Shown here one piece after another: positions 1-63,100 of a stretch of DNA of 64,000 nucleotides; position 1 is the first letter of the stretch; each line of letters begins with the position of its first letter. Below the pieces are notes generated by a model that saw only the letters and a list, made by a program, of their open reading frames with translations, searched no databases and was not told the DNA's origin. This DNA is from Crambe crambe (lineage: Eukaryota > Porifera > Demospongiae > Poecilosclerida > Crambeidae). Position numbers and translations under genes: made by a program. The stretch covers positions 5,649,404 to 5,713,403 of the forward strand of contig OZ004597.1 in NCBI GenBank assembly GCA_963924555.1, in the 5' to 3' direction.

Positions 1-3000
1 TCACAGTACAGCGTCCTTGTGGCCGTCCTATCAGACTGAATTATACAGACTCTGCTCAACTCAATCAGTGTGGATTCACTTTTTCTAGAGTATGGGAAGT
101 AAATGATGATTGCGGGCAATCTGTTCAATTCACTCAAATCATTCGTGTGCTGGATCAGCAGCTTCCTGACTCACCAATGAACGGATTGATCAATAGTCGT
201 TTAAACGAGCCCCTATCCTGGCCTCAGTATCCAGGAGCAAGCTCTTACCAACTCTATGTGTGGAGAGAAGCTGATGATCAGAGACCTGCAGAACCAATAG
301 CAGTTACCTCTTCACGACAGTATCAGCCAAGACCTAACTTCTACCCTCCTGGTACTAGAATGCTGTGGCAGGTTGAGTATGTAGTAGGTGTCAATATGAC
401 TATCCCTAGTCCAGTCTGGGGCTTTGAAACCGAGCGACGACCAGATCTTGAGGTTGTTGATGTTACTCTGCCTAACTTTGCTTATTCTGGTCAGTCGTTT
501 GATGTTGCATGGTCTGTTATTAACAGTGGAAATTTGAGTATCACTGGAAGTTTCTTCTACGATGATATCTACATGAGTCGTACCTCATCAATTTCCGATG
601 GTCGTAGAGTTCGACGTTTTATGCAACGAAGATTCCTGGATCCAATGGATGGCTATAACTCTGAAGTAGAAATTAATCTTGCAGATGATGATATCGGAGT
701 CTTCTATGTATTTGTAATCACTGATGGACTCTATCATGTAAGTAACTATCATAATTTAGGAAATATTTGCTGATATTCAGTGTTAGGAACCCTGCTAAGT
801 GAAAATGAATTCTGAATTTCTAATTTACTGTTTTTAGATGCAACTCTGATTTATAATTCATAGCTAATAACTGAACTTTTGAGTGGCCCAGCCTAGTCTC
901 GTTCCCAGACCGCTTTTTTCTCCCCATGCAATTTGGCACATGCGGAGGGAGGGGGAGAAAAAAGGGTCTGGTGACTTGCCTATTCAACCTGTCTCTTTGG
1001 CATGCATATATATAATTAGATTTGACTCACGCACGCAGTCGAGTCAGTCGATCACAGTTTGTGGATAGAGGACTTATCCAGCCTCAGGAGTGAGTTTTAC
1101 TCAGGAATAACAATATTCTATCAGTTTTTATTCCTCTTCTGAGAGATGTTGGGGCACCCCAGTCATCAATCGACAATCTTCAGCTTGCATGTACGTAGAA
1201 GGCTATATTTCTCTAACCTCCAGCAGTATTGCATAGCAGTATGACTTGCCATAGTCCGTTGGCAAAGCAGCAAAAACGTCGTTCCCTTACTTCTTGGTTT
1301 GGCTTTAAATTTCAAGCTATAACTCAGTGGAAATTTCGTATTCTGATTAATAATTGCATTTTTTTGGTTGCGCTCACATTCCAACGTAAGAGACATGAAT
1401 AGGCAAGTCACCTGACCCTTTTTTCTCCCCCTCCCTCTGCGCATGCCAAATTGCATGGGGAGAAAAAAGCGATCTGGGAATGAGACTAGCCCAGCCTTGA
1501 TTTTTCAGACTATGTCACTAAGTCTTGTGTTATTTGTATGCATCAATTATTGAGTTACTTGTTCAGACTTCATCACTTGAAGTGTTGTTATGTGCACTTA
1601 TAGGTCAGAGGAGATGTGGACAGAACAAATAACATCAGGATCAGCAATGCTCCTCTGCAAGTCCGCTTAACACCACCACCTAACCTAGTTGTGGAAAGTC
1701 TTATTGTTCCAGCATCTTTTTTCTCAGGTTAACTATGATAATCTCTATTCTTTACCCTCACAACTGAGTTGTGAGTCGGTAAGCTTTATCTATTCTCTTC
1801 ATAAAAAGAACAGTACTGCTGCTTTTCATGCATGTACTATAAGTGGTAGATTGTATAGCTGAAGGTTACTAGCCCAGAATACAGCATCTTCAAATGGTTA
1901 CCTATATAGCTAATCCAGCATCAAGATTTTGCTAAAATGCAGTAGTGTGTAACTCTTAATTTCAAATTTCAGTGAATTTTCAATCAGAATGTATGTCATC
2001 TCAAGCATGATGTGTGCATGGTTTGGTTTCCTTAGGTACCATAATTACTTATTTCTGTCTGTGCATGTTACTATTAGTATATATTTATATTTCAGACACC
2101 ACTATCACTGTAAGATGGACAGTAGTGAATAACGGAGTAGGTGTTACTGGAGTCAGTGACTGGTCTGATCGCCTTTATTTCTCACTTGACAACAGAACTG
2201 ACAGTCAGTGGCTAGCTAGCCATTTCATTTCCAAACTAACAGTCATTTAATTTAAATATATATTTTTACAGATAATAGAGATATTCTAGTGACACGCTCA
2301 CATCATGGAGTAATGCCAGTTGGATCTAGATATACTGAAGCAGTTTCCTTTCTGGTTCCTCATGCTATTCATGGACGCTACTTCTTTATTGTGGTTACAG
2401 ATGTGTTTGACAACGTATATGAACATGTTCAGGAAAATGACAACACCAACCAGACCATGGTAAAATTAGTGCACTTGGAGTGGGATTACTATTTCAGTGT
2501 AAATTGATACCTTTAGCAAAGACATGGAATAATATCTGCCGGCCATACAATCATCCATTGTTCCTATTATAGCTATATCAATCTTGTTGCTCTCTGTGTT
2601 AGGTTCAAGTAATCTTGGCTCCACCTCCTGACTTGGTGGTATCATCTTTGCAAGTCAGTGATAATGATTCTGTCAGGACTGGGGACACTTTGAGTATCAG
2701 ATATGTGGTCACTAATGAAGGAGCTGGACCTTCCTTTGAGACCTATTGGACTGACTACATTGTAAGCTTTTTAATAATGAAAATTTTTTATATACACATG
2801 TGATAGAACTTAAATATTAGATGCTTGGCCACTTTTCCATACTTTAGCTGTCCATAACTCATGACTACTAGTGGCCTAGGTCTTGAAATTTCAATCATTA
2901 TAGAACAGATGACAGAAATTTTGGGACAATTTCATCAAAACATGTTTGAGAAATTGCCCATTCAATTAAGACACTTAAAATGGGATTTCTACCTGTGATT

Positions 3001-6000: not shown

Positions 6001-9000
6001 TGTGGCATTTGAAGCTATCAAAATGTACTGGTTCAATTCAGAGTCAGTCTTTGCGACATTTAATATAACAGGTGCAAGTCATGGTGAATATTCCATACGC
6101 CTTGTGGATGAGAAAACTGGAAATATTGCACAACTTAACAACAGTTTCAATATCTCAACAGGAATCCCTGGTCAACTAGCAACAAACGTCCAGGCTCCTA
6201 GACCTCTTCGTGTAGGTCAGACAGGAGAAACTGTCATAACTGTTGAGAATATTGGAAATACTGACATACTGGCTCCTTACCTAGTTCTAGTGAGCACAAG
6301 TAACGCTCACTTTAAACTTCTTGACACTTCTGGCCCCATCGACTTTTCTCAACAGATAGATTTCCTTTGCTTAAACCTTGAAGGTCCTGCGGGTATTTTA
6401 CCGCCAGGGGCATCTACTCGAGTCACTTTTAGAGTTGCTCAAGTAACATCACAACGAAATAGTCGAGCAAGATTCAGAGTGAAGATCGCTAACAACCAAA
6501 CTGCCCCTCATCCTTATTTGGACAAGAAATCCAGCTTACAGCCAAGATTCATACCTAATGAAGTGTGGGATACGATATGGGAGAACTTTATTAGCTCAGT
6601 GGGTACTACTCAGAAATCATTTCAACAGAGAATGTCTGAGATTGCTTCAGAATTAAGTATGGTAGGAAAAAGGACCTATTCTATCCAAGAAATGGTGACA
6701 TATCAGCTCCAAGTAGCTTATGGTCTTTTATCAGGTATATTCTAGCTAAACTATGATATTGTAGCTGATAAGATTTGAAAGTATTCTTAAAGTTATAGCC
6801 TAGAGGACAAGTGATTAGAGCTTTATATTCCTTTCTGAAATTCAGGTGATACTGTAATGTCTTTGGAGGATATGTTTGATGAAAGTGAGAGTTCATTCTT
6901 CCCATTGACTGTTGTAAGAGTGTATTCTGCTTACATTCATAAACGTCGAACTATGGGACCAGTGGGAGTGGGATGGCATCTAAATCTATGGTATGCATAA
7001 GAGTACAATAATTATGAATAAGTATGGATGACATGGGATGTCCTAATACAAAATTATAAAAAGATTAATCTCAGCATGCTCGTACATGAAAGCTAGAACC
7101 TAAAGCATTCTCAATTTCTGAACTACTTTACTCAGCATAAACTGCAACTTTATCTTCACGTGTTCACTTAACTCCAGTAGAAATGAACATGTGAAGATTA
7201 TGCGACATAGTCATATTAAGTTGTAGTGAAATAATGATCATAAAGTGTTGGCATAAAGACTATAGTGGAGTAAGAACACAATAAAGACATTGGTAGAGAA
7301 GATTGTAAGCAAAATTTGATGGAGCACACTTCACCCACAGCCTAACCTTAGCACTCAAGGAAACAATTTAATGAAGTAGGGATTTCTATCAGGATTAGCC
7401 TAAGGGTCAACTATAGAATTGGAGTTTGGGTTGAGTAAGTGTGTAGGGATATTTGACTTGAAAGTATTCTTGGAGGAACATCCTCTGGTTAAATGCCTTT
7501 TTGCCAACCATATGCAGCTCTTCTTACTTATTTTACATTATTACAGCAAACACTTTTAAAGTTGTGGAGATCATGCATTTCAATTTAAATTATGTAGGGA
7601 ATTGCATCTTGAAAATATCACATCTGATAGTATCACATTGTGGAAACAAAGGGAAGCTTACACCTTTCATAGAAGTGGTTCTTCATACCAGTTCAATGGT
7701 GAAACTATGGTCACCACTCCAGATGGTACGTCAAGCTGTTGCGCTTGAAATTAATTGGGGATAGCAAACAAAGCAAGAATTGGGGGATTTCTAATATTAT
7801 ATCTTGTCTGTTCTAACAGTTTTATGGTTAAACTGAGCATGTGCGCTCATTGCTTGCATTCCCTAATAATTAACTATTATATTTCTTTTATCTCGATACC
7901 TATTTAGGTATACGGTATTTTGATTCTGGTGGTGTGTTCCTGTATTTATTTGACTCATCTTCTGGTAAACTTACAAGTGTTGGTGGATATGTTCACAATG
8001 TCACACTTGCTTTATACTACACTGAGGGAAAACTTCACTACATAGAGCACTCCAACAGTGGGAAGAGACTGAGCATCAACTACACCACAAGTGGCTTGAT
8101 AAGGAGCATAGAGTTGCTGAATGCTGGAAACACAGTAGAAGAGGCACTGTATGTACTTTCTTTTGAATGTGCTGCTACAAACATAGACCATAATGACAAG
8201 AATCAGATACCATACATGAATGCCTGTGTATGGCTGTATATGCTGACCATGCATGGATGGCTGGGTATATCACACTTCTAGCTGAGATTTAGCAGCCATA
8301 AATTTAGTCTTCGATAACTGCTAATTGTATAACATTTTCTTTTTGCAGCTTCTATAGTTATGATCCATCAGAGAGATATTTAACATCAATCAATAGAGGA
8401 GATGTCACGTTGGAATACACTTACAGTGAAGATGGTGACCTCATTCGTGCTACTGATGAGTATGGAGCTAGTAAAGTCATCAGTTACAATCAGAACAACT
8501 GGATTGAAAGCATTGAGAACTTTGATTCTAACTCTGAGCTTGCCTCCAAAACTGATTACAACATAAGCTGGAATGGCAAACTAGACATTTTTGTCTCTCC
8601 CATTAATACTTCTCAAAGTATAGTCCATGATAAGAACGGAAATATTGTCTCCATAGCAACTGATAATGGTCTACCTGGGATGTTTATTGAATTGCCTTAT
8701 GGAAGGAGACTTGTGTTGGGAGATGAAGTGAGTAACTTACTCAAGTTTCCTAGATATAGCATACAATGAAGTCATTTTTATACTCTAGCTTAGCTAGTGC
8801 AATTAGATGTGTGCAGTATGCTTATCTATATCAAGGACCAATGATGCACGAAAAAGAACATCAATGTCTGACACATGGGTGGGACTTTCTATATTATAGT
8901 TCAATGTTCATATATAACCATGCATTCAGGTTGTAGCAGAGAATCGTGAGCGAGGCAACACTCTCTACAGTGTTGACTCTGATGGAGTAGAGTACAGGTA

Positions 9001-12000
9001 TGTACGGGATGATGAAGGAAGATTGATCCTCTTTGAAGATGGTGATGGCAATGACTATACGTACTCATACCTTGAGAATGGATTGCAGAACTCTTCTGGC
9101 TATCCAGATGGAAGCAAGACTAAGTTCACATATAGTGAGGAAGGTTATTTGACATCACTCATAAATCCAGACAACTCTACAATCAACTTCTCTTATGACG
9201 ATGATGATAACTTGGTGAGCAGGTGGGGGGAGAGATGGAGGGTGACTATTTTTGTTTTTGTTTATTGTTGTTGTTTTTTGTTTGTATACTACTTATGTAG
9301 CTGTTTAGACAATCTTGCTATAGCTACAGTATAAGGTTAACTATGAACCTCAGATAGCAACTAGACTCAGCTTAAAAACACTGACAGTTACAGTACTCTA
9401 TCATCCTCCAGTTGCCCAATATCCAGGTTCATACTTTACTACACTTCTAATCTTATTCTTAATATTTGCCAGATTTACCGTGGCAGTTCTGGTAATGAGA
9501 TGCACTTTGAATACAATGCCAATAGACAGCTCATCTTGGCTTACAATGGTAACAGTAGAGTGTCCATCACGTACGATGACAAGAGGTTCCCAAGTGAAGT
9601 CCGATACTCATCAGGATATACACTCTATTATGGCTATAACAATGAAAGGGGTCAGAGGTCATTCTTAGCTGACAATCATGGATACAACATCTCCTATATT
9701 TATGATGCACAGTCCAGACTGGTGGAAGTCCGCAAGTCAAATGATAGCAGTCTTATTTCCAGGTTCGAATATGTTGATGGCGTAGTGGTGAGGAAGACCT
9801 TGGGTAATGGAGCTTATAGTCTGTACACGTATGACAAACCCTACCGACTAGTACAACAAGATAACTACCTACCCAATCACACACTTTCAAGCTCAAACCG
9901 TTACGATTATGATCAGAAAGGAAGAGTGGTAAACATAACTGACTCAGCTGGTCAGACCTGGACATACAAGTATGACATTACTGGACAGCTAACTGGATGG
10001 ACCTCATCAAGTGGTGAAAGCATTCAATATACTTACGATCGCAGAGGGAACAGACTTTTGATACAAAGAGGAGCAGCTAATGAGAGATACTTTGTTAATA
10101 ACATGAACCAGTACACATCTTACAATGGTAATGAACAGTTTTCTTATGACTCAAATGGCAATTTAGTACAAAAAGTCACACCACGAGGAACAGAGAACTA
10201 CGAATTTGATGCCGAAGGAAGACTAATTTCTACTCAAACTCCTAATGACAGGTGCTGGTTTAGGCACATGATTAGAATTAATGCTAGTTGGCAATAATAG
10301 GGTTTCATTGACACAACTGTAGGAACATTATAGGCCATAAGTAAACAATAATAGGTAACTACAATACTGCAGTCTGGACCATCTCTATATGTTCTATTAT
10401 TCTCCAGACTTGTGCTCTTGAGATAAGCAAGAATAATTTAATACTGCACGAGTTGATAGATGTCTGAGCTTTAAATCAAAAGTTTAATAATAGACCAATA
10501 GCTAAGGATTCATCATTTACTTCACTAAACATATAATAGGTGTGCATATTCATATGATGCTTTTGGGAACTTGTATCTGAAGAACTGTTCTAGTGGTACT
10601 CATCGTTACCTGGTGGATCCATTTGGGACATTTGGAGCTGATATCATTGCTGAAGTAAGAAGTGTTTGGATATTGCATATTATACATAAATTTTATTTAT
10701 GTAGATTTCTGAAGATGGAACAACTTATTTTGTCTACTCTCGTGGTGAAGGGCTATTAGCAGCTCTCAATACAAATGGACGTTCAGACTTGTACTATGAA
10801 TTCAACATGGATGGGTAAGAGTTTGATAAACTATCTGACCTTATCTCACTAAAGAATGTCCTAGATTTGATTGAGATAGTGATGACTCCTAGTTATGTAT
10901 AATATATTTATTCATTATTCAATGCAGGGCTGTTGAAAAGGTCTTGGATGCCAGTGGAAGGATTCTTAATTCTTACAAGTATGATGCATTTGGGAGAATG
11001 ACCTATCACTCTGAAAGGACCAGGAACATCTTCAAGTACAGTGGATTGCTAGGAGTCATGCATGATGAAGAACTGGTGGATATCTACATGATGAGAGCTC
11101 GTCACTATGATGCACAACATGGACGATTCATCAGTATTGACCCAACCGGTTGGTATAATAATATGAGCAAGTGTGGCTACATGGCTAGCAAGTCAGTCTT
11201 AGACCCATCACAAGAATATAGGAACAGCAAGATTATAGTGTGTGCAAAAATTAAAATCACTGCCTAGTATTGATTATACGTAAGAAGAGTACTACTAAGC
11301 TATCAATGCGTGCATGCATGCATGCATGAGCTGTTAGGCAATTGAGCAAATGGAGAGTGCTACGTGTAGCTATATGTATATCAATGGTGAATATATGGCT
11401 GTGCATGTGTTCCAATTATAAACTCACTCCCTTTATAATTTCATCTTGGCGGCCCTGTCATAGGAGTGAAGTAGGAATGGTTAGCTCATAGTTCAGGAAT
11501 ATTGGTGATGGGTAAGGGGTTATTTGACTCTCTTATTCGTGAACTTTTTTGAACTGTACACAGCCATACCTACTTTTCTTTTTTAAATATTTTTTTCCTT
11601 TATATCAGAGCTTTCATACCAGAAGACTAAAATAGCTTTCACCCACTGAGTCTAGCAACGAATTTTCTAGCAAATACTGCCATAATAATTATTATGTATG
11701 GCATTATTATTGATTATCCTTAACTTTCAATATCTCTCTATAGGATTGAATGGGAAAAGCCCCAACTTCTATGTTTATGCACTCAATAACCCACTCATCA
11801 TTAAAGACCCAACTGGTCAAGTTTTTTTCGTGCCTTTTGTTCTACTGCCTGTTCTTGGTGCTTCTCTTAGTACAGGAGCGTATCTGATCTCAACACCAAG
11901 TGATCAACGCACATATGGAGGTGATATTATATAAACTGTACATGCAGCACGCTGACTTAAGACAACAATGTTCTCACTGACATAGCTAGCTAGTGTTTTC

Positions 12001-15000
12001 ACAATCTCATCATGCTGGAGCTATGTTGTAATACAGAATCTAAATCCTGACTATTTTATCCTTCATACATACTACATAAGCTGCAAAGGAAAAAAAATAA
12101 AGCAAGTAGACCATGATATAGATATAGTAGACCATGATATAGATATAGTAGACCATGATATAGATATAGTAGACCATGATATAGATATAGTAGACCATGA
12201 TATAGATATAGTAGACCATGATATAGATATAGTAGACCATGATATAGATATAGTAGACCATGATATAGATATAGTAGACCATGATATAGATATAGTAGAC
12301 CATGATATAGATATAGTTATGTTCTTGGTATCTTTAAGAGCTACTTACATACCAACTCAACAAGTATACCCACTGAACTTTGGACTTAGTTGCATTATAG
12401 GCAAAGATAATGCAGTTGCAGTAGCTATGTTGCACATTCTCAGTTCATTCAGCTCCTAGCTAGCTAGTATCATGCAATTCTCAATCTTGTCAAAAGAAAA
12501 ATAGTCTATGTTAAAGTAGTGTGGTGTCACTTTAGTAATGCCAACTTATTTCCATATTCCTCAAATTATCACTTTTCTTGTATAAATGATATGGTATACA
12601 TCTTTTTATTACAGGAGTTGCAGGTGCTGCAGCTGGTGGTTTACTCGGAGGATTAGGAGGCACAGGTTGATATTATCTTTATGAATCTTTCTATCACAAA
12701 AAAAATTACTAGTTCTGATCATAATTCTGGATAATATGTTTATAATATGTTCAAGTGCTGACATGAGATTAAATTGTGTCAAGCATAATCTTTTCTACCT
12801 ATGTCTCACACAGGTGTAGCATTATTTAAGGGAGCAGCTTTGGCTGCCCCAGTGGCAGCAGAAGTAGTCAAGTATGGAGTAAGCGCACTCTTGGGAGAAG
12901 ATACTAATTTAGCAGATTCACTCCATGATGCTGGATATGGTCTTGCCTGGAATCTTCTACCAGGAAAACTCGTCTTTGAACCCTTTGAGATGATCATAAA
13001 GAACGCTGGCAGTAAGTTTAACCACATATCTTTATCATGCTTTGCATGTAGTTATAAAATTCTGTGTACATATTTCTGATTTCCTGATCTTAAAGTATTG
13101 TTTTAATTTTCTTGCAGTTGGAGATTTACTCAGCTTTTTTTTAACAAAACGTAAGAAGACTGCTTTCTTAAAGTGTGTGGTAATTTTATTATTATTATTT
13201 TTTTTTTATAGCAAGAGAAGCTCTATTCAACACTTTATTGAAGAAATCTTATGATGAGAAATTTAAAAAGGATGTCCAAGAGCAGGATAAGATATTGAAG
13301 GAGACATTAGCTGATCTGAAAGAGACGCTTCAGGAGATAGCTGAAGAGACAGGAGAAAATCTTGATGAAATCTATGAGCACATTATTGAATGGATTGCAT
13401 CTCGAGATCCAGTAAGATTATTGGTTGTTGAGTAATACAAAATAGCCTTGCCCACATGCGTATGAGTCTACTCACAATAATTAAGATGTGGCTCTGATCA
13501 ATACAAGAATCATTTCTTTTCTTTTTTTATCAGCTTGTTTGGGCAGGAGAGAAAGTGATAACAAAAGAATAGGGAAGTAGCATAGCTATTAGCTAGCATT
13601 GAGTCAGCAAAGAAATGCAAGTGCAAAGCTTCAGCATATGTTCCCCCTTAAATATGATTGAATATCATATTATGCTTGTTTCTCTCCAGAATGACATGAT
13701 TGGTCCAGCTGGTTATGGAGATGCACATTTCATCCCACCTGAAGTCCAGCTTCATTACACCATTAGGTTTGAGAATCATCCTAATGCAACTGCACCAGCT
13801 CAAAGAGTCTTCATAAGAACATCCCTAGATGAAGATATTGACATGCGATCTTTTAGAGTTGGGACATATGGCTTTGGTAACTTTGTTAGAAATGTCTCCA
13901 TGAATCAAGCTATAATTCAGGTAAAAACCTTTCATATAAAAGATTTATCCTTTGAATCTTGATTATTTTGTTATAATAATTATAGGAAGTGCTTGACCTT
14001 ACCTCTTCACTCGGAGTGTATGTGAGGATGAGAGGAGGATTAGATATTATCAGGAGAGAAGCCTCTTGGGTACTGCAAGCCCTCGATCCAGTAACTGGTA
14101 AGACTCATCCTCTTATTCCTCATCTACTGCAGAATGCATTAAACTTAGCCAGTGCTAACTTATGTTTTGACCACAAGAATATATAATTTTTTTTAAATAA
14201 ATGCTTATACTTTTTAATTGGGTCATGTGAAGATTTAGCAATATAATTAGTCTGGTGTGTGCATGCATAGAGATAACACATAATGTAGTGACCAGCATAT
14301 GCTTTTCCTACCCTCCATCCCCTCAGGTGCACCTCCAGCTGATCCTAGTATTGGATTCCTGCCTCCTAACAATGGCACAACTGGGCAAGGCTTTGTGACT
14401 TTCTCAGTATTTGCTCATGAGAATGCTAGCCACTTGGCTAGGATAGATGCTGAAGCTAGCATCATATTTGATGCCAATGAGCCTATTGACACTCCACCTA
14501 TATTCAACACAGTGAGTTCCCCTCAGTTAGCTAGCACTCTCTAGATTTCATTTGCTAGCCAGATACTTCCTTTTTCAGTCATTAAGACTCATGTGCACCT
14601 GGCTTACCCTGAATCAAATTCATGCTGCTTGTTTTATAGATCGACAGAAGATACCCTGAAGTGAATCTTTCAATCAACAGTGAGCTACTCACAGCTGGAG
14701 TTCTAGCAGTGAACGTTGAGAAAAGAGACAATGGGTCTGGAGTTAGGGGTGTAGATCTCTACAAAGTTTTATCAGGTAATTATGATTGACAGCCCTGACA
14801 CAATCAGGTAATTTTTCATTTATTCATTTTAGGTGGTAATGAAATTGTACCAATTGTCAGTGGAACTAAGAATGACATTGTTCTATTACCACTTGGTGAA
14901 AGTACCCAATTTTCACTGCTCAGTACAGCAGTGGACAATGTTGGTAACAGAAAGCCACTGGGTGTTGCAATGCAAGACATACAAGAACTCGACTTCCCAA

Positions 15001-16302
15001 TCGTCATTGCCACTTGTCCTAACGACTGCACCAACAATGGAAATTGCACTGTGTTTGGAAACTGTATATGTGAAGATGGCTTTTATGGAAGTGACTGTAG
15101 CCAAAGTAAATATTATCTTACTGTTCCTCTCCTCTCCTCTCCTCTCCTCTCCTCTCCTCTCCTCTCCCCTCCCCTCCCCTCCCCTCCCCTCCCCTTCCCT
15201 CCCCTCCCCTTCCCTCCCTTCCCTTCCTTTCCCCTCTCCTCTTCTCTCTTCTCCTCTCCTTTATTCATTTGTTTATCTATTGCAGGGACTCCTCCATCAG
15301 AACCTCCTGTCTTTGAGATTCCCTATGAAGTCCATGGGATTGTGGATGAGCCTGTCCTCATTCCTATAGTAGCTCTCCTACCAGACAGGAATACTACTGA
15401 TGGCTTGGTAGTGTATGTTGATAATGTGCCCACACAGGCTAACTTCAGCAGAGGAACAAAAGAAGGGAACAGATGGACCTTCACCCCAGATGAATTTGGT
15501 GAAATACCATTCAGCTTGCCTCCAGGCTTTACAGGAATAATTGAATTAGAAGTTACTGCAATTGCTTTTGGTGCCAGGAGGCAGAGATCTCTGGCTATTT
15601 ATATCCGGCGAAGTATAAATTCTACAGAAATGTTGACTGTTTCGCCAACAATGCCTACTGAAGAGCCACCGAGTGTCTCAACAGAGATCACCAGTGAGCA
15701 GACAACAGAGATCACCAGTGAGCAGACAACAGAGATCACCAGTGAGCAGACAACAAAGATCACCAGTGAGCAGACAACAACCACCCCTACATCTGCAACA
15801 GTGATTACCAGGGAGACACCAACTACTGAAGACCAAATTCGAACATCAATTACCAGAGAGACACCAGCAAGTACTGATAGAATCAGTACGTATTGCTACA
15901 TAATTATTTCCATTCTAAATACACTCGTGCAACAACTATTTTGACACATTGCCATGTATTTTCCTCAGTTTTGAATGGTTGTCCATTCGGACCTGACTTA
16001 TTGTGGGATATAGTTTGGATAAACACTCCTCGTGGTGCAACTGACATCCAGATTTGTCCTGGAGGCCTAGAATCTATTGGTACATAATCTTATCACAATG
16101 ATTATGCCATGCATGCAGCTACGTATGTTATGGTATAGTAATTAATTCGTTGTATTTCATTACATGTACAGGACAAGCTACTCGTTATTGTGATGATAAT
16201 GGAATATGGTCTGAACCTAATGTTCTGGGCTGTGCATCAAGAGTGTTCATACAACTCTATGCTCAAGTATATATAGTGTCCTTTTTTCATTACTTCCTCC
16301 TA

Positions 16303-16394
<92 letters not shown>

Positions 16395-17149
16395 TTCCTT
16401 CCTTCCTTCCTTTCTTCTATAACATACATTCATGCAGGCTAATGAAGCATTTTCAACTAATGACCCTGAAGTCCTGTTGGAGCAGAGTAAAAACATTACA
16501 TCCCATCTAGCTGAAGCTACTTCTAGTTTTAACAGATCTCTCTTTCCTGCTGATATTCAGATAACTAATGCCATAGTTGATGATATAGTTGGAATATTAG
16601 AAGATACTGCTACGATTAACCCAGAACCTGATGAGGTATGCATTTAGTGCCACATTATGATTACCAATACTGTAACAACTATGTTTTGTTAATAGAATGT
16701 TATCGATGTTTTCAACAATGTCCTTGATGAGATGAACTCCAATGCTTGGACTGCTCTAAGAACTGTAAATTTTTTTTATAAACTAATTAGCTAGCAAAAA
16801 TTGACTTAATTCAAACTCTTCAAACACCAGCAGATGCACAATTTATTTTATTGCCAGTTAGAAATGTATGTCCCATATTCACCACAATGAAGCATTGCAT
16901 TTGACTGAGCAATGCCATGTCAGATTAAACATAGTTAAATTTCAATAACGCTCAAGTGAACATGAATTCTTTTTAGGCACTGACCTTTAGATTATTTTTG
17001 TGTATTGCTATCAGGTAAAAGTTGTCAATGGGAGTGAGCTTTTACTCAGTGCTTCTGAAAGATATGGTTTGGTGGTTGCAAAAGCAAATGGAGAATCTGA
17101 ACAACCAAGAAGACTATCAAGACCTAACATAGGTATATAATTTATCTAT

Positions 17150-17180
<31 letters not shown>

Positions 17181-20100
17181 GCATTATCAGCTAGAAGGTA
17201 CAATTCACAAGTGGAGCATGGTGACTTAAACTTTCCAACTATTGAGGACTTGGTTAATTTTACAAGTGACATCCAGTCTTTGATGTCCACAATATCTTCA
17301 AGCATTATAACAGAAAAATTGGAGAAGGAAGAGAAATCAGTAACATGTGAGTGTGTGCATGTACTATTTAGTCAATGAGAGTAGAGGAACTAGCTACTTC
17401 ATTGAAATTAGCTTTTGCAATAATAAGTAGGATTGTGGTTTAAAAAAGAAATCCAAAACTCTAATGGCAAATCCATGGAGTAATAGCACATAAAGACTTC
17501 TATGCATTATATTATATTTTTAATGGCACTTTGTGAGCATGGTTGTATACTAGTAATATGATCTTGGACTATTCAAAATTAAAATTTATGTTACTATGAT
17601 AATGTTTCATTGATGAAATGCAGCCATTCCAGTAGCACACATGCTCTTCAACAACCTGGAGACATATCTTTCATCTTCATTCCTCAGCTCCACAGATTTA
17701 CCCAAAGTAGCTTCAGTAATATACTCCATACAGCTAGGAGAGAAAAAATCTGTTAGTGAGCAGTCTGAAGTGCTTCAAGACACACCTATTATTCTTAATT
17801 TTGCTTTTTCAGAGGTATATTACTGCCTTAACACTAATTGCTGAAACTGATAATGTTTGATTTACAGCTTGAGAATATCTCAAATTACACTTGTGCATTC
17901 TGGACTTTTTCTGAACCGTAAGTATTATAGCTATAGTCATTTATTCACATGTTTCTTACTGTTAATAGCCAAGTAGTTTCAAAGCTAGCTATTAATTTTC
18001 TAGCATTGGCAAAGGAAGTTTCATTACTGATGGAGTGACCACAAACAGTAGCATTACTGAGGATGACATAACTACTGTTCAATGTCTAAGTAAGCATGCC
18101 ACTAGCTTTGCTGTTCTGGTTGATGTGGCTGGAGGATTGAAGGTTCGGAGAAACTTAAATGAATTAGCAACAGTGTAGTAACATCTTTTTTTCTAGGGAG
18201 TGCCACCTGCCGAGTTAAAAGCTCTTGAGATTGTTTCTTATATTGGATGTGCTATATCAATAGTGTGCCTCGTTCTTACTGTAATATTCTTCTTATTTCA
18301 AAGGTATTACATAATTATGTCCCATCAAAAGCATTGCTTTTATTATTGGTATTAATATAGGAAAAAGCTTTTCGAGTCAGTGAACCAATTTGTTCATTTG
18401 AATCTTGCTATCACACTGCTTGCTGCATTGATCGTATTTGTGTTTGGAATTGAACTTGGAAATCGATCGACGGTTAGTGATGATGCAGTAACTATATTTT
18501 ATTCAATAATATGTTGCACAATATTCAACATATTATCTTATATAGTTGCATGCATTAATTCTTTCAATTGCAACATGCAATTTTGGATTTGTTAATTCTT
18601 ATGGTCCACCTGTAGTTAATATAATACAGTGAGGGAGGAAGCTAGTAAGTTAACTTTCAGATAATGTCCCATAATTTCACATGTACAGTATTTTTGTCCA
18701 CTACCTATTTTGTATCTATTGCTGGCCACACTACATGAACATATTATTATGTTTGCCAAGAAGTGAGCTGTTCTGTTCTGGTTCAGTTTTGAGGTGTCTA
18801 GTGTTGGTTTCTAGTTTAGTAGTGATGCCAGCAAGAAATAAAATAAGAAATAAACTAGGGCAATGTTCAACATTCAGTTGACAGCGAGCGAGCAAGCATT
18901 CTTTAGTGCTACAACTCTTTAGAAGATTAGTTTATACAGGGGTGTATCCACCACTCTGGTTGGTCCAGTTTTCACCAGACCACTTTTATTAATAATTATA
19001 ATTTCATCCCATGCCTGCAGAGTTAGCTAAGTGATTATATGAACCCTCAAGAATCATGATCACATTAGCATCCTTGTGATAAGTGGGTTAAAGGATAAAG
19101 TGGGCGTGGTGATCCCACGCACAAGCACACCCGGGCCACTCAAAATTCTGTGGATACACCCCTGTTATATGTATTAGATAAGCGAAAACTACTATTTTAG
19201 CTTTAGACAGTGAGCAAGTGAGCATGATAGGCTCCAGTGCTTGATATTGCTTCAGAGACAAGAGTCATGTAAGTAACCAAAAAGCTCCACGCAACAAAAC
19301 CTGTAAATACTTACCACAAGCACTTAGATAAGCCAAGTGCCTACAATTCACTTTGATAGCACGCGCAGGCGCTACTATACACGACAAGTACCGTACCTAC
19401 ATACACCTGGGGCATTTTGGAGTGTAGACCTAGATATATATATATATATATTTAAAATTTCAATGAGTCATGACCTGAGAGTCAGCTCGCTCGCTGCAAT
19501 AAATAAGAAATAGCTGAAGCAGCAGTTGCAGTGCACTTGCTATTACACACAAACTTTGTGTGTAATAGCAAGCCCATGCCCTGATTAGTAGCTGATGCCC
19601 TACTGCATAAGTTCATGCACTAGGCACATGCTCCCTTAATGACTTGATTTCTTATATTATGCTTCTTATTATGTGTTTTATATTTCAGGCTGGTTGCTTA
19701 GTAGTGGCTCTTCTCTTGCACTATCTGTTCCTGTCTTCTTTTTGTTGGATGCTGTGTGAAGGAGTATTGCTTTACCTCCTATTGGTGGTCATTTTTAGCA
19801 CATCAGCTCGTAAATGGTGGCTATTTGTCCTAATAGGCTATGGTAAAAAAACATTTTCTTCAATTTCATTAATTTCATGAAAATTTAATAATTAACAGTT
19901 CTTCCAATTCCTATTGTGGTGATCAGTGTGGCTTCACGACATGCCTACTATGGAGTGCGTGATGAATACGGAAAATTGCAATTGTATGTAATGCAGCTAT
20001 AACTAATATTCAATTACACCATGTGTGTTTATTTCTAGTTGCTGGTTATCAGTGGAGAAAGGCACCATTTTTGCATTTGCAGCTCCTGTTATTGCTATTT

Positions 20101-22340
20101 TCATTGTGAGTTGTCATAGCTAGTTATCAGTAATCATTTATAATTTGCTTGTACTCTATAGATCAATATTGTGTTCTTAGCACTTGCTTTGAATAGTATG
20201 CGAAAAAGCAGGAGCAAGAAGCAGTACTCTCAAAAGAAAAATGATGAGAATAAGAATCTGGCTATGGCAAAGTATGTTTGAATATAAACAGCCCTACAGG
20301 GTGCCATGTAATAATAAGTTTGTTAGATGTGTGTGCATGCTGTAGCTCCTTTGCTTGCATTTCATTGTTGTGTGAATCATTTGCGAAAGCTATAGAAATT
20401 TTTACAAGTAAGCTGTGGATAAGGGAATTAAAAAATTTTTGGCAGTGGTAGCTGGCTATGAACAGAAAAAGCTACTCTTGATAATGTGCATGTACCATAA
20501 TGTGGCCTCTATATCACTTTTGCCTCTACAGATATCTTTTCTTGGCTTCAATAATCTTACTTCCTCTTTTGGGTTTGACTTGGGTTTTTGGAATGCTCAC
20601 CATCAATGTAAACTCAACAGTCTTTGCATGGTTGTTCACCATTTTCAACTCACTACAGGTTAGTATAGTGCTATATAGTAGCTAATGATAATCTCATTGC
20701 AATTTTGACTTCATTACGTATGCAGGGTGCTGCTATATTCTTCTTGCATGTAGTCCGAAGTGATAAGGTAGGTAAATTTAGCTAGCTATTTGGTGTATGT
20801 GACTTAAAGTATTGATGAATCAATGTATTAGGTATGGAGTAAAATATCTCCTAAATTACGAATTCGAAAGAGCAAACCTTCAAAATCCTCTTCAACTACA
20901 AAATGGGTAAGTAGAACTAGCTCCCAAATCAAATCAATATAGTCTTTTTGGTTTAGCTACATGCATCGTGTTGTAGAGTTAGTAGCTATGGCTACTGCTC
21001 ATACCCTCTCATTAGACAGAGCCAGAGACTGAGAGAAGGAAGAGTTAAATATAGAGAACTTGAGATACTTTACTTGCACACTTGCTCACTAATGTTTCCC
21101 TAGTTATAGGTATAGTTGATTATTATGATTTCTCATTATTTGCAGTCTGCCAGCAATGCTACATCTAGAAAAACCAGTTCCACAAATTTTGGTGAGTTAC
21201 ACAGCTGAATAGCTAGGCTATAAGTAGCTACAGTGGCAGTTAGCTATAGTATCATGTGGAATACGAGTTCAAGTAGTTTAGCGTGCACCTTCTAATGAGA
21301 TAGAAGGTGTTGTCTTTCCGGAGCAATCCCCAATTATCACCTCGTAACACCAATTATTATATCAAAGTACCCCTCTTAGAAATCACAAAATCACAATCAC
21401 ATGACTAAAAGGTCATGATGCACATGCAATTAATAATGAAAGCTACGACAAGAAGACAGCTGAAATTTACTCAATGATGATATCTCAACTATAGCATCAA
21501 TTTCTTATAAAGGAAAGACAACAGTCTCATACAATTCATGAATCACTTGAAGCTTGAAGGTAATAGTTACATCACTCGCATTAACTAAATGAAGAAACTT
21601 TGCTTCATGTGAGTTCAAGAGAAGATGAGGTGCTGTCTGCCCTAGGCATATAGGTAGTCTCGTGAACCAGACCCTAGGAAGGCGAGATCCCTCAACCTTT
21701 GACACTATACAATCCTGTGAAGCTGGTGAGAAAGTTGCTCCTTCTTAGTCAGACATCTCATGGTGACAAACAGTAGACTCTGTAAATGCTAGTATAGCTC
21801 TGGGCTGGAAAAGTAGTGTTATGTTGTGGAGCAACACAAGAGGACTGTGTGGAGCAAAAATCAGCCTAGTAGCTAGCTAAGTTCACTAATCATCAAAATG
21901 AACAAAGTGAAGTTATAGGTTGTTCATAGCATCTACAAAGATTATCCTATGCTTAAAAGTTGCTCATTATATATAATGGATTCTATACAGGTGGTAATGT
22001 GTATTCTGGTGTATCAAAGAAAGATCTAAGTTTACAACTTGATGACTCCAAGCCTGGTGGTGAATCAAAGGAAGATCGTATTGAAGAGGAAACAAAAATG
22101 GACTTGGGAAAGCTGCAGGAAACAGAGCGACAAGAGTTTTCTGAAAGTACTGCTCCTGACAGTGAAGGCAGCACAAAGAAAGTATTCCACAGCAATAATC
22201 CTCTATACCTTGAAACAGAATTCGATGAAGATGATTCTACTAGGCCTTCAGGAGATACCAAGAGGGAGGCTGCAGCCTCCAAATCTGTTAGTGATGTTAA
22301 TGATGAATCTGATGGTGAAAACAAACTTGCATATTTTTAA
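1..22340 (+). CDS. Giant adhesion GPCR with CARDB + Rhs/YD-repeat ectodomain (5' partial)
   Basis: Predicted cell-surface receptor; the 5' end lies outside the window. I joined 46 exons by GT-AG sites and phase: <1-737, 1604-1727, 2096-2203, 2272-2459, 2603-2761, 3062-6734, 6846-6990, 7598-7725, 7908-8148, 8349-8727, 8930-9214, 9473-10251, 10540-10654, 10705-10814, 10928-11148, 11744-11920, 12615-12665, 12814-13011, 13118-13150, 13212-13411, 13690-13920, 13986-14097, 14327-14511, 14640-14775, 14833-15105, 15286-15885, 15969-16079, 16172-16266, 16438-16635, 16696-16764, 17015-17132, 17182-17346, 17624-17814, 17868-17917, 18004-18142, 18197-18303, 18361-18472, 19689-19842, 19899-19983, 20039-20105, 20162-20271, 20532-20658, 20726-20767, 20832-20906, 21146-21191, 21991-22340. 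The total is 11,997 nt in frame, 3,998 residues (numbered from the codon at base 3). The ectodomain spans about residues 1-3574, seven helices 3575-3842, then a charged tail. Weak donors (10252, 11149) are the least certain joins. Transcript evidence is absent, so two abutting genes remain possible, though no stop or start separates the halves. Confidence 0.8.
3..440 (+). other. HYR-like and fibronectin-III-like N-terminal modules
   Basis: Residues 1-50 contain a Cys-containing strand pattern followed by RVWEVNDDCGQSVQFTQIIR, which resembles the 'W.a.D.CGn....Q.i.v.D' signature of HYR-like repeats in bacterial surface proteins. Residues about 58-145 contain LSWPQYPGASSYQLYVW, an Fn3-like pattern. 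The frame is open to the left edge, so more modules probably lie upstream. Assignment is by motif only. Confidence 0.45.
441..5560 (+). other. Nine CARDB-type beta-sandwich repeats of the receptor ectodomain
   Basis: Nine repeats each open with a P/A-D-L-x-V-x-x-[LVI] strand and carry 'v.n.G' and 'D.v.lS' motifs: PDLEVVDV (441), PNLVVESL (about 1677), PDLVVSSL (about 2627), CDLIAGNI (about 3299), ADLAVQNL (about 3670), PDLRVVSV (about 4051), an APTVTLNI repeat (about 4417), PDLTVSAI (about 4807) and TDIAVFNV (about 5178). CARDB (cell adhesion related domain found in bacteria) is mainly bacterial and archaeal. Repeats 4-9 lie in one uninterrupted 3,673-bp exon, while repeats 1-3 are split by short introns. 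Confidence 0.75.
894..1488. mobile_element. Non-autonomous TIR element starting TAGTCTC, 8-bp target duplication
   Basis: This lies inside the first intron of the receptor. The left arm (894 to about 990, TAGTCTCGTTCCCAGACCGC) is inverted at about 1392-1488 (ending TCTGGGAATGAGACTA). The flanks repeat gcccagcc at 886-893 and 1489-1496, a perfect 8-bp target duplication. No coding capacity is seen in the 595 bp. The shared TAGTCTC terminus links it to the element at 37710-38444. Confidence 0.8.
5561..6734 (+). other. Pre-peptidase-like, TIG-like and NEW-like linker domains before the YD shell
   Basis: After the last CARDB repeat, residues about 1272-1400 (VLGRVTRIALAPNDIRVFQI) resemble a bacterial pre-peptidase C-terminal beta-sandwich, with the ending motif GTYYLRIE. 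A stretch beginning EILSITPITAAPLGNVTI resembles an IPT/TIG domain. A final block from PRPLRVGQTGETVITVEN to IPNEVWDTIWENFISSVGTT matches, from memory, a module that precedes Rhs domains in large bacterial surface proteins. Family names are tentative; the beta-rich character is clear. Confidence 0.5.
6846..11920 (+). other. Rhs/YD-repeat shell with Rhs-associated core
   Basis: The shell opens with GPVGVGWHLNLW (residues about 1700-1711), the typical Rhs entry motif. At least ten YD repeats follow, such as YTYSEDGDLIRATDEYG, YDQKGRVVNITDSAGQTW, YDITGQLTGWTSSSGE, YDRRGNRLLIQRG, YDSNGNLVQKVTPRG and YDAFGRMTYHSE. The core is RARHYDAQHGRFISIDPTG split by an intron after DPT-G, then NFYVYALNNPLIIKDPTG. 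In known structures such repeats form a closed beta-shell that encloses a C-terminal peptide (bacterial Rhs, TcC, teneurins). Twelve or so short exons cover the region and all junction phases agree. Confidence 0.85.
11744..13411 (+). other. Hydrophobic Gly-rich segment and coiled coil after the Rhs core
   Basis: Directly after the core comes VFFVPFVLLPVLGASLSTGA, then a glycine-zipper-like GVAGAAAGGLLGGLGGTG (exon 12615-12665), an Ala-rich helix (exon 12814-13011) and a charged helix rich in E/K heptads (exon 13212-13411, from KKDVQEQDKILKETLADLKE). In bacterial Rhs proteins this position holds the variable C-terminal region, often begun by a similar hydrophobic stretch. No toxin catalytic motif is visible here. 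The segment could lie inside the shell or insert into a membrane; that is inference. Confidence 0.55.
12106..12318. repeat. 21-bp minisatellite, about ten copies
   Basis: The unit tagaccatgatatagatata plus g repeats head to tail without visible interruption in the intron 11921-12614. It creates long open frames by period (21 is a multiple of 3), but these have no splice or start support. Confidence 0.95.
13690..15000 (+). other. Bacterial-style surface module (DUF7619-like) after the Rhs region
   Basis: Exons 13690-13920, 13986-14097, 14327-14511 and 14640-15000 encode a module starting NDMIGPAGYGDAHFIPPE, continuing YTIRFENHPNATAPAQRV, then IGFLPPNNGTTGQGFVTF and IIFDANEPIDTPPIFNT. From memory this motif series occurs almost word for word in secreted proteins of planctomycetes, cyanobacteria and related bacteria. 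No enzymatic motif is seen. The family number is tentative. Confidence 0.55.
15007..15105 (+). other. EGF-like domain of the receptor
   Basis: The stretch CPNDCTNNGNCTVFGNCICE continuing to GFYGSDC has six cysteines in the EGF spacing (C-x3-C-x5-C-x5-C-x1-C-x8-C). It lies at residues about 2963-2996, between the bacterial-like ectodomain and the stalk, and is the first clearly metazoan-style module in the chain. Exon 15106 ends on phase 1, common for mobile EGF modules. Confidence 0.85.
15123..15260. repeat. CT-rich/CCCCT polypyrimidine tract in intron
   Basis: Imperfect CTCCT and CCCCT repeats fill the intron between the EGF exon and the stalk exon and lead into its polypyrimidine tract before the acceptor at 15285. 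Confidence 0.9.
15286..15885 (+). other. Cadherin/Ig-like strand block and Ser/Thr-rich mucin-like stalk
   Basis: The exon starts with a beta-rich block (PPVFEIPYEVHGIVDEPVLI; residues 2997 to about 3100) and ends in a Ser/Thr/Pro-rich stalk with four tandem copies of the 8-residue unit ITSEQTTE (24-bp repeat, 15688-15782). Such stalks are usually O-glycosylated and hold the ectodomain off the membrane. The 24-bp array is likely to vary in length between alleles. Confidence 0.7.
15969..16266 (+). other. Hormone-receptor-like (HRM) domain
   Basis: Two exons encode NGCPFGPDLLWDIVWINT ... IQICPGG ... ATRYCDDNGIWSEPNVLGC. The spacing of W, CP, the R-x-C pair and G-x-W-x-x-P-N-x-x-x-C fits the HRM family found just N-terminal to GAIN in many adhesion GPCRs. 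Residues are about 3197-3264. Confidence 0.7.
16307..16392. repeat. (CT)n microsatellite
   Basis: An uninterrupted CT dinucleotide run in the intron 16267-16437, upstream of the first GAIN exon. Other long (CT)n runs occur at 47303-47384 and 53053-53120, each in an ABCC intron near an exon. Confidence 0.95.
16438..18142 (+). other. GAIN domain with GPS autoproteolysis motif
   Basis: Residues about 3265-3574, seven exons. The helical subdomain (LLEQSKNITSHLAEATSSF, LFPADIQITNAIVDDIVGIL) is followed by the beta subdomain and GPS. GPS shows CAFWTFSEP (exon 17868-17917) and TTVQCLSKHATSFAVLVD (exon 18004-18142). The cleavage triad His-Ala-Thr keeps the essential His and the nucleophilic Thr. Of the four cysteines usual in GPS only two remain, one per pair position visible here. 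Cleavage before Thr would leave a tethered agonist starting TSFAVLVD. Confidence 0.85.
18937..19164. mobile_element. Short TIR element (CAGGGGTGTATCCAC), TTATA target duplication
   Basis: It sits in the receptor intron between TM2 and TM3. The terminal repeat CAGGGGTGTATCCAC is inverted as GTGGATACACCCCTG, and ttata flanks both ends. It is 228 bp with no ORF. The intron copy in the inverted paralogue (60687-61710) lacks it, so insertion followed the duplication, or it was lost there. Confidence 0.75.
19536..19572. repeat. Near-perfect 37-base hairpin in intron
   Basis: CTTGCTATTACACACAAA is followed at once by its inverted complement CTTTGTGTGTAATAGCAAG. It has an 18-bp stem with almost no loop, within the intron before TM3. 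The paralogue keeps only one arm, next to its CA repeat. Confidence 0.8.
20832..22340 (+). other. Cytoplasmic tail of receptor copy 1
   Basis: Exons 20832-20906, 21146-21191 and 21991-22340 encode a basic juxtamembrane stretch (KLRIRKSKPSKSSSTTKW) and a long acidic, Ser/Thr-rich tail of about 116 residues ending ENKLAYF at the TAA at 22338-22340. No catalytic domain is seen. The 800-bp intron 21192-21990 includes a TAGTCTCG-containing repeat fragment near 21657. Confidence 0.8.
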
Positions 22341-40104: not shown

Positions 40105-40168
40105 TCGGATTGGATGTGCTGTTCCAGTCTCAATGTCATGCTCGATAACATCAGTCTTTCCTGGTGTG

Positions 40169-41000: not shown

Positions 41001-41006
41001 GATCTC

Positions 41007-43385: not shown

Positions 43386-43431
43386 GCACCTCTCTCTCGT
43401 GGATCTCGAACGAACAACTGTCTTCGATTAA

Positions 43432-45636: not shown

Positions 45637-55434
<9,798 letters not shown>

Positions 55435-61163: not shown

Positions 61164-61222
<59 letters not shown>

Positions 61223-63053
61223 TACACAAAATGCCCTTGCTATTATACACACGACAGCGCAGATGGAGGAATGCTCTTATCAGATTATACCATTCATATA
61301 TACATCTCTAACTGCCTATACGTGACCAGATGACAAAATTAATCCTTGGACTGTGAAGGTTTCATTTTTCATACTTCAACTGCTCACATGCTAAACTATC
61401 TACAACACTAGATACACACCTCAAAAATAGAACAGCTGCACTTCTTGGCAAACACGTGGACACAATAAATATGTCCTTGCTATGTGCCAAGGTAGCAGAC
61501 AATAAAATGACATGTGAAATTTTTAGAGGACATGATCTGAAAGTCAACTCACTTGCTTCCTCCCTCACTACAAATGGACCACAAGAATTTACATGCAACT
61601 AGTTCAAAATAATTGCATGTTGCAATTGAAAAAACAAACAAATAATGCATGCAACTATATAAGACGATATGTTGCCCAATAATAAATATAGTTACTACAT
61701 CATCACCAACCGTCGATCGATTTCCAAGTTCAATTCCAAACACAAATACAATCAATGCAGCAAGCAGTGTGATAGCAAGATTCAAATGAACAAATTGGTT
61801 CACTGACTCAAAAAGCTTTTTCCTACATTGATAATAGCAATAACAAAAGCACTGCTTTTGATAAATTACAAATTATTACCTTTGAAATAAGAAGAATATT
61901 ACAGTAAGAATGAGGCACACTATTGATATAGCACATCCAATATAAGAAACAATCTCAAGAGCCTTCAACTCGGCATATCCCACTCTCTGGAAAAAAGGTG
62001 ATTAGTTAGCTATAATAATTATAGCTAATTCATTTAAGTTTTTACGAACCTTCAATCCTCCAGCCACGTCAACCAGAACAGCAAAGCTAGTGGCATGCTC
62101 ACTTAGACATTGAACAGTAGTTATGTCATCCTCAGTAATGCTACTGTTTGTGGTCACTCCGTCAGTAACAAAACTTCCTTTGCCAATGCTAGAAAATTAA
62201 TAGCTAGCTTTGAAACTACTTATGAAACATAATTAGCTATAGTTATAATACTTACGGTTCAGAAAAATTCCAGAAAGCACAAGTGTAATTTGAGACATTC
62301 TCAAGCTGTAAATCAAACATTATCAATTTCAGCAATAATTATTAGTGTTAAGGCAGTAATATACCTCTGAAAAAGCAAAATTAAGAATAATAGGTGTGTC
62401 TTGAAGCACTTTAGACTGCTCAGTGACAGACTTTTTCTCTCCTAGCTGTATGGAGTACATTACTGAAGCTACTTTGGGTAAATCTGTGGAGCCAAGGAAT
62501 GAAGATGAAAGATATGCCTCCAGGTTGTTGAAGAGCATGTGTGCTACTGGAATGGCTGCATTTCATCAATGAAACATTATCATAGTAAGCTTAACATGAC
62601 TTTTAATTTTGAATAGTCCAAGATCATATTACTAGTATAGCTAACCATGCATATTTTATATGGCATGCCATCACAAAAAATATATAATGCATGGAAATCT
62701 ATTCATGACTGTATTTGCAACTAATATTAATGCCATTAGAGTTTTGGACAATTCAAGTGAAAAAAGGGTCAACAATGAATACATTGTTCCTTCTTTATAC
62801 TATAGTCCTACAATTTCAAAAGCTAATTTCAATGAAGTAGCTAGTTTCTCTTCTCTCACTGACTAAATAGTACATGCACACACTCACATGTTACTGATTT
62901 CTCTTCCTTCTCCAATTTTTCTGTTATAATGCTTGAAGGTATTATGGACATCAAAAGCTGGATGTCACTTGTAAAATTAACCAAGTCCTCAATAGTTGGA
63001 AAGTTTAAGTCACCATGCTCCACTTGTGAATTGTATCTTCTAGCTGATAATGC

Positions 63054-63100
<47 letters not shown>

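Follow-up and report, generated by a model that had tools for sequence, protein, structure and literature searches.

A YD/Rhs-repeat shell and an adhesion G-protein-coupled receptor in one predicted polypeptide of the sponge Crambe crambe

Bilaterian teneurins carry a YD-repeat shell and bind latrophilins, which are adhesion G-protein-coupled receptors (GPCRs), in trans. What, then, should be made of a sponge gene that appears to place such a shell and such a receptor in cis, on the same chain? The gene lies at positions 3-22340 of the forward strand of the window, i.e., the whole stretch of 64,000 nucleotides (nt) of Crambe crambe DNA that was analysed (assembly GCA_963924555.1, contig OZ004597.1, positions 5,649,404 to 5,713,403). 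A sequence-only reading had proposed this cis arrangement in one predicted polypeptide, and the proposal is supported: by several lines of evidence, the predicted shell and adhesion GPCR architecture is real in this genome. The explanation that we consider probable is that of a giant adhesion GPCR gene, in which a shell of bacterial derivation sat within a single-pass receptor whose membrane anchor was then swapped for the end of an adhesion GPCR, yielding a proposed sensor.

The structure of the gene is well supported. Rebuilt from the DNA and checked by script, the window gene (copy C; its paralogues are labelled A, B, D and E) has 46 exons and a single frame of 11,964 nt, in place of the 11,997 nt first given, which is divisible by three and encodes 3,987 amino acids (aa) before a terminal stop, the only stop in it. 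Each of the 45 introns is GT-AG (their lengths run from 49 to 1216 nt, with a median of 143), and the junctions 11148/11744, 13411/13690 and 15105/15286, flagged by the earlier reading for verification, are the same in the rebuilt model. The splice sites of copy C were picked by hand to hold the frame, so its openness alone proves little; that CARDB, Rhs/YD shell, EGF, HRM, GAIN/GPS and a seven-transmembrane (7TM) unit do share one open frame is confirmed by copy A, which opens independently. There, an exon-by-exon alignment made with no condition on frame found every one of the 46 exons between AG and GT, the joined frame (11,886 nt) having a single stop at its end and three exons differing in length from those of C (by +3, -72 and -9 nt).

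Along the forward strand, the window part of the predicted chain starts with the end of an immunoglobulin (Ig)/HYR-like region and an array of CARDB repeats (exons 1-6, 3..6734, aa 1-1662; Pfam CARDB 1.6e-39), followed by the YD/Rhs shell with its Rhs-associated core (exon 7 to part of exon 16, 6846..11820, aa 1663-2478; RHS_repeat 9.6e-29, and NCBIfam Rhs_assc_core at 57.5 bits, above its cut-off of 32.5). A motif match to the Rhs core autoprotease signature (aa 2437-2478) falls at 11100..11820, split by intron 15 into 11100-11148 and 11744-11820, and the rest of exon 16 through exon 20 (11821..13411, aa 2479-2672) encodes a linker, hydrophobic and Gly/Ala-rich and then helical-looking by eye, at the position of the cargo in bacterial Rhs proteins. 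Between shell and EGF lies a module that the earlier reading did not have, DUF7619 ('DPNDMIGPAGYG...IFNTID'; Pfam 1.6e-14), encoded with the start of the next Ig-like stretch by exons 21-24 (13690..14775). Exon 25 (14833..15105) adds an Ig-like stretch and one EGF module (EGF_2 19.6 bits, below its cut-off of 22.1; aligned in the relatives P0001-P0005 discussed below), and exon 26 (15286..15885), with phase-1 introns on both sides, an Ig-like domain and a Ser/Thr-rich stalk; this exon contains a 24-nt tandem repeat at 15679-15779 and is shorter by 72 nt in A and by 126 nt in B. Intron 26 (83 nt, 15886..15968) is the joint between stalk and receptor, after which come an HRM-like domain (exons 27-28, 15969..16266; 7.7e-5, 23.5 bits, below the cut-off of 26.2), GAIN and GPS (exons 29-35, 16438..18142; CLSKHATSFAV; 1.8e-15 and 1.5e-5), a secretin/adhesion-type 7TM (exons 36-43, 18197..20767; Pfam 7tm_2 4.6e-50), and a cytoplasmic tail with the stop (exons 44-46, 20832..22340). 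As well as HRM and EGF_2, DUF6531 matched below its cut-off (20.1 bits against 24.1). Intron 16 holds a perfect 21-nt tandem repeat of 10 copies (12105-12317).

The gene also extends 5' of the window, which the earlier reading did not include, through Ig/HYR-like exons into an SRCR array. The 10 kb of upstream DNA (L009) contains both kinds of exon, the last SRCR exon joining the first Ig-like exon in frame by eye, and all six upstream pieces tested (6/6) match Pfam SRCR. SRCR motifs continue to the edge of this upstream DNA, and the start of the gene presumably lies beyond it.

Is the arrangement an accident of the assembly? A profile search of the whole genome (143.1 Mb, 119 contigs) placed the RHS and DUF7619 matches on contig C20 only, in five clusters (14/14 and 9/9 among the matches listed), and protein-to-DNA alignment on C20 identified these as A (+), B (-), C (+), D (-) and a diverged E (-). 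Copy B has 46 exons, GT and AG at 45/45 introns and one terminal stop (11,826 nt), its exon 26 being hand-placed, its exon 27 acceptor taken 9 nt downstream and its exon 43 fitted by a frame-keeping choice. The 3' part of copy D (GAIN-7TM-tail), traced by protein alignment, lies in the window at 58452..64000 (-), and outside the window, on the far side of an assembly gap, the copy has DUF7619, shell, CARDB and SRCR parts of its own; a run of 2,500 Ns covers its exons 23-29, and its exons 1-22 and 30-46 are open. There are accordingly three full fusion copies (A, B and C) and a fourth (D) gapped at the joint. Four copies, spread over ~300 kb and lying in both orientations, repeat the order RHS, DUF7619, 7TM, and on that ground an artefact was rejected, even with D gapped at the joint. 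Two GPCR fragments also lie nearby: stray exons (about 38-41) at window 43785-44341 (-), one of them 98% identical in protein to exon 38, look like a partial duplicate, and a partial 3' end (tail and some transmembrane exons) lies between A and B at C20:5452381-5454996 (-), with no shell match nearby on the same strand.

A second way to dissolve the architecture would be to suppose an adjacent single-pass YD receptor gene and adhesion GPCR gene, merged by the splice model. Both halves do occur apart, the receptor half without a shell elsewhere in this genome and in the sponge Geodia (P0121), and the YD half without a 7TM in copy E and in other animals; moreover, AATAAA or ATTAAA hexamers occur in introns 15, 16, 17 and 22 of C, and also in 7, 30, 32, 37 and 41. 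The relatives leave little room for such a border. For each of P0001 (Antedon), P0002 (Mya), P0003 and P0005, one BLAST alignment covers C from residue 2 to at least residue 3014, and the oyster protein P0004 (Saccostrea) aligns in two collinear pieces. Since relatives align collinearly in single alignments, the same chain holds CARDB, shell, linker, DUF7619 and EGF and continues in them up to the Ig domain, and therefore only introns 26-28 could separate two genes, the passage from stalk to HRM/GAIN/7TM being the sole new joint. These introns are all short: intron 26 measures 82 nt in A, 153 in B and 83 in C, and introns 27 and 28 measure 82 and 236 nt (A), 97 and 410 nt (B) and 92 and 171 nt (C). 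Introns 23-29 of C contain neither AATAAA nor ATTAAA, the stalk exon has no transmembrane (TM) helix of its own, and a simple hydropathy scan found no convincing signal-peptide-like start after any Met at aa 2450-3600, the best candidates being Met 2588 and Met 2940 (11-residue means 1.65 and 1.52). A, B and C all keep the frame across the joint, which in D falls inside the assembly gap. Taken with the paralogues, intron sizes, start scan and hexamers make two merged genes very improbable.

How, then, did one chain come to hold both? Copy E is informative here, being 70% identical to C in an alignment of 3,008 residues that spans CARDB to Ig, with no HRM, GAIN or 7TM match in the DNA examined around it. 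After its stalk there is one hydrophobic helix (L036:700-2200 (-), i.e., C20:5250700-5252200), followed by an in-frame TAG or, if a 60-nt GT-AG stretch is spliced, by a basic cytoplasmic tail; E alone among the five copies has a single C-terminal TM, and A-D have a 7TM. The proteins from the crinoid (P0001), Mya (P0002) and the oyster (P0004) likewise end in one strongly hydrophobic helix (the helix scan also flags weaker stretches within CARDB or the linker in P0001 and P0004), as does, by eye, the eukaryotic-looking metagenomic P0130. P0003 and P0005 end after a TSP1 domain; these two and P0130, all metagenomic, were treated as eukaryotic on N-terminal, EGF, TSP1 or TM features. The coral protein P0018 stops within the Rhs core, cut off before its end, and was not counted for the single-pass form. 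P0001, P0002, P0004, P0130 and copy E are collinear with C over CARDB-shell-DUF7619-EGF-Ig, and have one TM helix where A-D have HRM-GAIN-7TM; unlike the window gene, P0001 and P0002 have no SRCR reported. By eye, P0001, P0002, P0003 and P0005 share an N-terminal region starting THFRG or SHFRG, which SRCR seems to replace or precede in the sponge copies.

Because copy E and the crinoid and bivalve relatives end in one TM, it seems that an older receptor of the single-pass kind gained the receptor end, and because both single-TM YD relatives and shell-less GAIN-7TM relatives exist, that receptor likely lost its anchor to the adhesion GPCR end. Introns 25 and 26 are both of phase 1, and the stalk exon of E likewise ends in phase 1, borders that fit exon shuffling at that spot. 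The ancestor would have read SRCR array, Ig/HYR, CARDB, YD shell, linker, DUF7619, EGF, Ig, Ser/Thr stalk and one TM, and its membrane end would have been exchanged, at the phase-1 intron after the stalk, for the HRM-GAIN-GPS-7TM of a latrophilin-like adhesion GPCR. The shell, then, seems not to be a ligand newly joined to a receptor, and seems instead to lie within an older single-pass ectodomain whose anchor was replaced.

For the shell itself, bacterial proteins offer a precedent. Giant Rhs-DUF7619 proteins of Cyanobacteria, Planctomycetes, Chlorobi and others have the same order of YD shell, Rhs core, linker and DUF7619, many with CARDB or other Ig-like arrays before the shell; they differ in having no 7TM among those listed and in their place in a quick tree of shell-DUF7619 sequences (LG+G4), apart from the eukaryote-like set. 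This tree (47 rows: C, E, 7 eukaryote-like proteins and, out of 242 hits, the 38 long bacterial-type ones that scored best, with no teneurins included) splits the two sets with an SH-aLRT of 100, the sponge shell grouping with the crinoid, bivalve, coral and metagenomic eukaryote-like proteins; 31 rows fail a composition test, the long branches of Mya and Saccostrea meet, and the node joining the sponge rows to their sister lacks support (59). It is the CARDB-shell-DUF7619 block as a whole that would derive from such bacterial proteins, and not from teneurins. An earlier scan of genome contigs found no relative; a contig search with alignment covered the best 80 of 222 relatives, of which names and match ranges were used. 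In it, the chromosome of Candidatus Paraprochloron terpiosi (L106), presumably the cyanobacterial symbiont of the sponge Terpios, matched the DUF7619 end of the query only, a possible lead on exchange of that module.

The receptor half has the features of an adhesion GPCR: a secretin-type 7TM, a GAIN (57.4 bits, cut-off 26.5) with a GPS (25.9, cut-off 22.5) directly before TM1, and a His-x-Ser/Thr tripeptide with a tethered agonist, HATSFAVLV in A-D. Its best match among 92 solved structures (60 listed) is ADGRL3 (latrophilin-3; 6.6e-50), the best outside ADGRL being ADGRD1 (8.1e-45), and this is a best match by sequence comparison, not a subfamily classification. Latrophilins share the GAIN-GPS-7TM and an HRM-like domain; where they have an RBL/olfactomedin ectodomain, the window gene has SRCR-CARDB-shell-DUF7619-EGF-Ig. 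Pfam reported neither RBL lectin nor olfactomedin in the three window pieces, with the upstream part sampled only. Shell-less GAIN-7TM relatives are present in this genome, e.g., at C1:3040574-3044844, and P0121 of Geodia barretti is 44% identical, with GAIN-GPS-7TM, a weak HRM and no shell family. Among sponge receptors with ectodomain parts in common, Amphimedon queenslandica Aq712029 and Aq715659 are described as adhesion GPCRs with SRCR repeats, and HRM as present in at least eight sponge adhesion receptors, in a part of PMC4302439; Aq715659 is named a possible latrophilin homologue in a part of PMC6428715. SRCR repeats, and in some sponge receptors HRM, are what these have in common with the window gene.

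The sequence-only reading had suggested that the shell could be a built-in ligand, folding back on its own HRM/GAIN/7TM. Teneurin-latrophilin binding in trans provides the analogy, and the match of the 7TM part to ADGRL3 suits it. The main teneurin contact of latrophilin is, however, the RBL domain, as given in part of PMC6422961, and the window part has no lectin or olfactomedin family reported; the same shell architecture moreover occurs in relatives with a single TM. On these grounds we judge a built-in ligand improbable.

Whether the shell does anything at all can be approached through selection (dN/dS, the ratio of nonsynonymous to synonymous change, by Nei-Gojobori). Between C and A (introns 11.4% diverged), dN/dS is 0.19 over all, 0.16 on the CARDB side, 0.15 in the shell, 0.40 in the linker, 0.085 in DUF7619, 0.24 in EGF-Ig-stalk, 0.32 in HRM-GAIN-GPS and 0.097 in the 7TM. 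Between C and B (introns 8.6% diverged), the corresponding values are 0.29, 0.20, 0.36 (7 changes), 1.25 (5 changes), 0.042, 0.36, 0.37 and 0.23. Exons 1-22 give 0.22 for C-D (shell 0.15, linker 0.79) and exons 30-46 give 0.48; for C-E, at a dS of 1.23, the values are 0.16 over all, 0.147 in the shell, 0.152 in DUF7619, 0.27 in EGF-Ig and 0.77 in the linker (84 codons). Shell, DUF7619 and 7TM are, on these estimates, under purifying selection, with shell and receptor both maintained.

The Rhs core, too, appears to have been kept. Autocleavage of the core is described, in part of PMC13018210, as needing an Arg, two Asp and PxxxxDPxG, a motif that the same part gives as absent in mammalian teneurins. 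Copy C has the Arg, an Asp 13 residues on, a second Asp 24 further and the PxxxxDPxG box, with Gln after the Gly. Searched as a pattern (the Arg, the two Asp spaced roughly as published, and the final DPxG), the signature is found in 5/5 copies A-E, in 5/7 eukaryote-like relatives (P0018 ends before it) and in 78/111 of the bacterial-type hits that reach DUF7619, with the P box in 72 of those 78. The core thus keeps the residues of an autoprotease and may still cleave, the putative activity being uncertain.

These two results bear on the suggestion that the shell is an inert spacer or passenger carried over from the single-pass receptor, signalling requiring only SRCR/CARDB binding and GAIN. 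SRCR arrays and CARDB repeats are indeed the likely binding parts, and the linker is weakly constrained; a passenger would hardly be expected to show a shell dN/dS of 0.15 in C-A, C-D and C-E alike, the higher C-B figure resting on so few changes, or to retain its Arg/Asp/Asp core signature across the copies and most relatives. We therefore hold an inert shell to be unlikely.

The preferred reading, a shell-bearing receptor that serves as a sensor, could work as follows. The long SRCR/CARDB ectodomain would bind a surface, potentially that of a microbe, the matrix or another cell. The shell would form a rigid cage around the hydrophobic linker, and the Rhs core would cut the chain just before that linker, so that the caged linker kept shell and receptor attached to each other. 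Load acting on the ectodomain would pass through the strut of DUF7619, EGF, Ig and stalk to GAIN, which would cleave itself at the GPS, and exposure of the tethered agonist TSFAVLV would activate the 7TM and G-protein signalling. The receptor so proposed is a giant sensor that would cleave itself at two sites, in the Rhs core and at the GPS; that the gene is transcribed as a whole, that both cuts are made, that the linker is encapsulated, that a ligand is bound and that G proteins are engaged are all inferences. A stronger version, which we offer as tentative and somewhat doubtful, would have a receptor of three chains and two self-cleaving joints, in which the caged linker alone ties SRCR-CARDB-shell to the membrane, making a one-shot sensor of force or release. 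If true, a bacterial toxin cage would have been turned into the safety catch of a receptor, and the single-pass form, present in this genome, a crinoid and bivalves, would make up an undescribed second family of animal YD receptors beside the teneurins.

Several observations pull the other way. The protein search suggested by the sequence-only reading, for proteins with both Rhs/YD and 7tm_2, came back empty: 0/120 listed (of 655), 0/120 listed (of 271) and 0/9 combine 7tm_2 with RHS or DUF7619, in searches limited by length and word sharing. The GPS has Ala before Thr (His-Ala-Thr in A-D, with His-Leu-Thr in the shell-less C1 relative) in place of Leu, which we take to be the usual residue, and it presumably lacks two of the usual Cys. 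The core signature is absent in the oyster P0004; C, E, P0001 and P0003 have an intact first DPxG, which P0002, P0005 and P0130 have in altered form; and the last DPTG is followed by Gln in A-D and by Lys in E, at a position where Leu is commonest (55/78 bacterial-type hits), and core cleavage may for that reason be lost. The linker is poorly alignable as well as weakly constrained (84/194 residues aligned C-E, 40% identical), and the cytoplasmic tail has a dN/dS near 1 (1.11 for C-A on 5 changes, 0.84 for C-B on 39). Finally, there are resemblances to teneurins: the EGF beside DUF7619 weakly resembles teneurin models (EGF_TEN 19.3 bits, cut-off 65), EGF_Teneurin is above its cut-off in P0003, and PF25023, which we take to be the teneurin YD-shell family, is entered in the protein database for the relatives, though also for most bacterial hits.

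These resemblances are what favours a divergent teneurin fused to a receptor as the source of the shell. In profile scans at E up to 0.01, PF25023 was not reported for C, P0001 or P0002. Among solved structures, the matches of the shell are Rhs proteins (2e-42), two teneurin-like protein chains (1.5e-28), taken from their name and residue numbering to be the bacterial ones of PMC13018210, and TcC; of 23 such matches at E up to 10, none is named as a metazoan teneurin, and by sequence no metazoan teneurin of solved structure comes as near to the shell as the solved Rhs and teneurin-like proteins do. Teneurins are likewise animal surface proteins with a YD shell and EGF and a bacterial ancestry by gene transfer, and the window gene does share the YD shell with an Rhs-associated core. 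Its flanking domains are others, however, with CARDB before the shell, DUF7619 after it, and no NHL, FN-plug or Tox-GHH reported (Pfam, E up to 0.01). In place of type II topology there is an anchor on the C-terminal side, a 7TM here and one TM in the single-pass relatives, and the core autoprotease signature that mammalian teneurins have lost is present. Judged by sequence, the shell is not a teneurin, and a teneurin origin, disfavoured by the solved-structure matches (the tree held no teneurins), is scarcely credible.

An independent origin of a YD-GPCR partnership, which the earlier reading had raised, is supported, the shell grouping with the eukaryote-like set and no solved-structure match being named as a metazoan teneurin. 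Because the length- and word-limited searches gave none elsewhere, the fusion is known from one genome, and the cis combination of YD shell and latrophilin-like receptor, found nowhere else, seems to be separate from the teneurin-latrophilin pair. A literature search, mostly by listings and with subscription journals thinly covered, recognised no description of this architecture; 'rhs', 'cardb' and 'yd repeat' do not occur in the main text of PMC4302439, and 'rhs' and 'cardb' occur neither in the parts examined of PMC12716839 nor in those of PMC10855680, which has 7tm_2 in its domain table. Teneurins are described, in PMC6428715, PMC6425310 and PMC13018210, as absent from sponges and other non-bilaterian animals. 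With relatives in a coral, bivalves and a crinoid, the YD shell seems to have come into animals along a route separate from that of teneurins. This makes two ideas testable: that YD shells and adhesion GPCRs are paired by a general mechanical fit rather than by shared descent, and that the protease of the bacterial core remains active within a receptor of animals.

Elsewhere in the window, three further features were noted by eye: an exon with an HELGH metallopeptidase motif, like those of Ste24-type proteases (35841-36320, +); long terminal repeat retrotransposon frames, one Gag-like (CCHC) and one reverse transcriptase/RNase H-like (38855-43427, -); and exons that resemble an ABCC-type ABC transporter (51172-55265, +).

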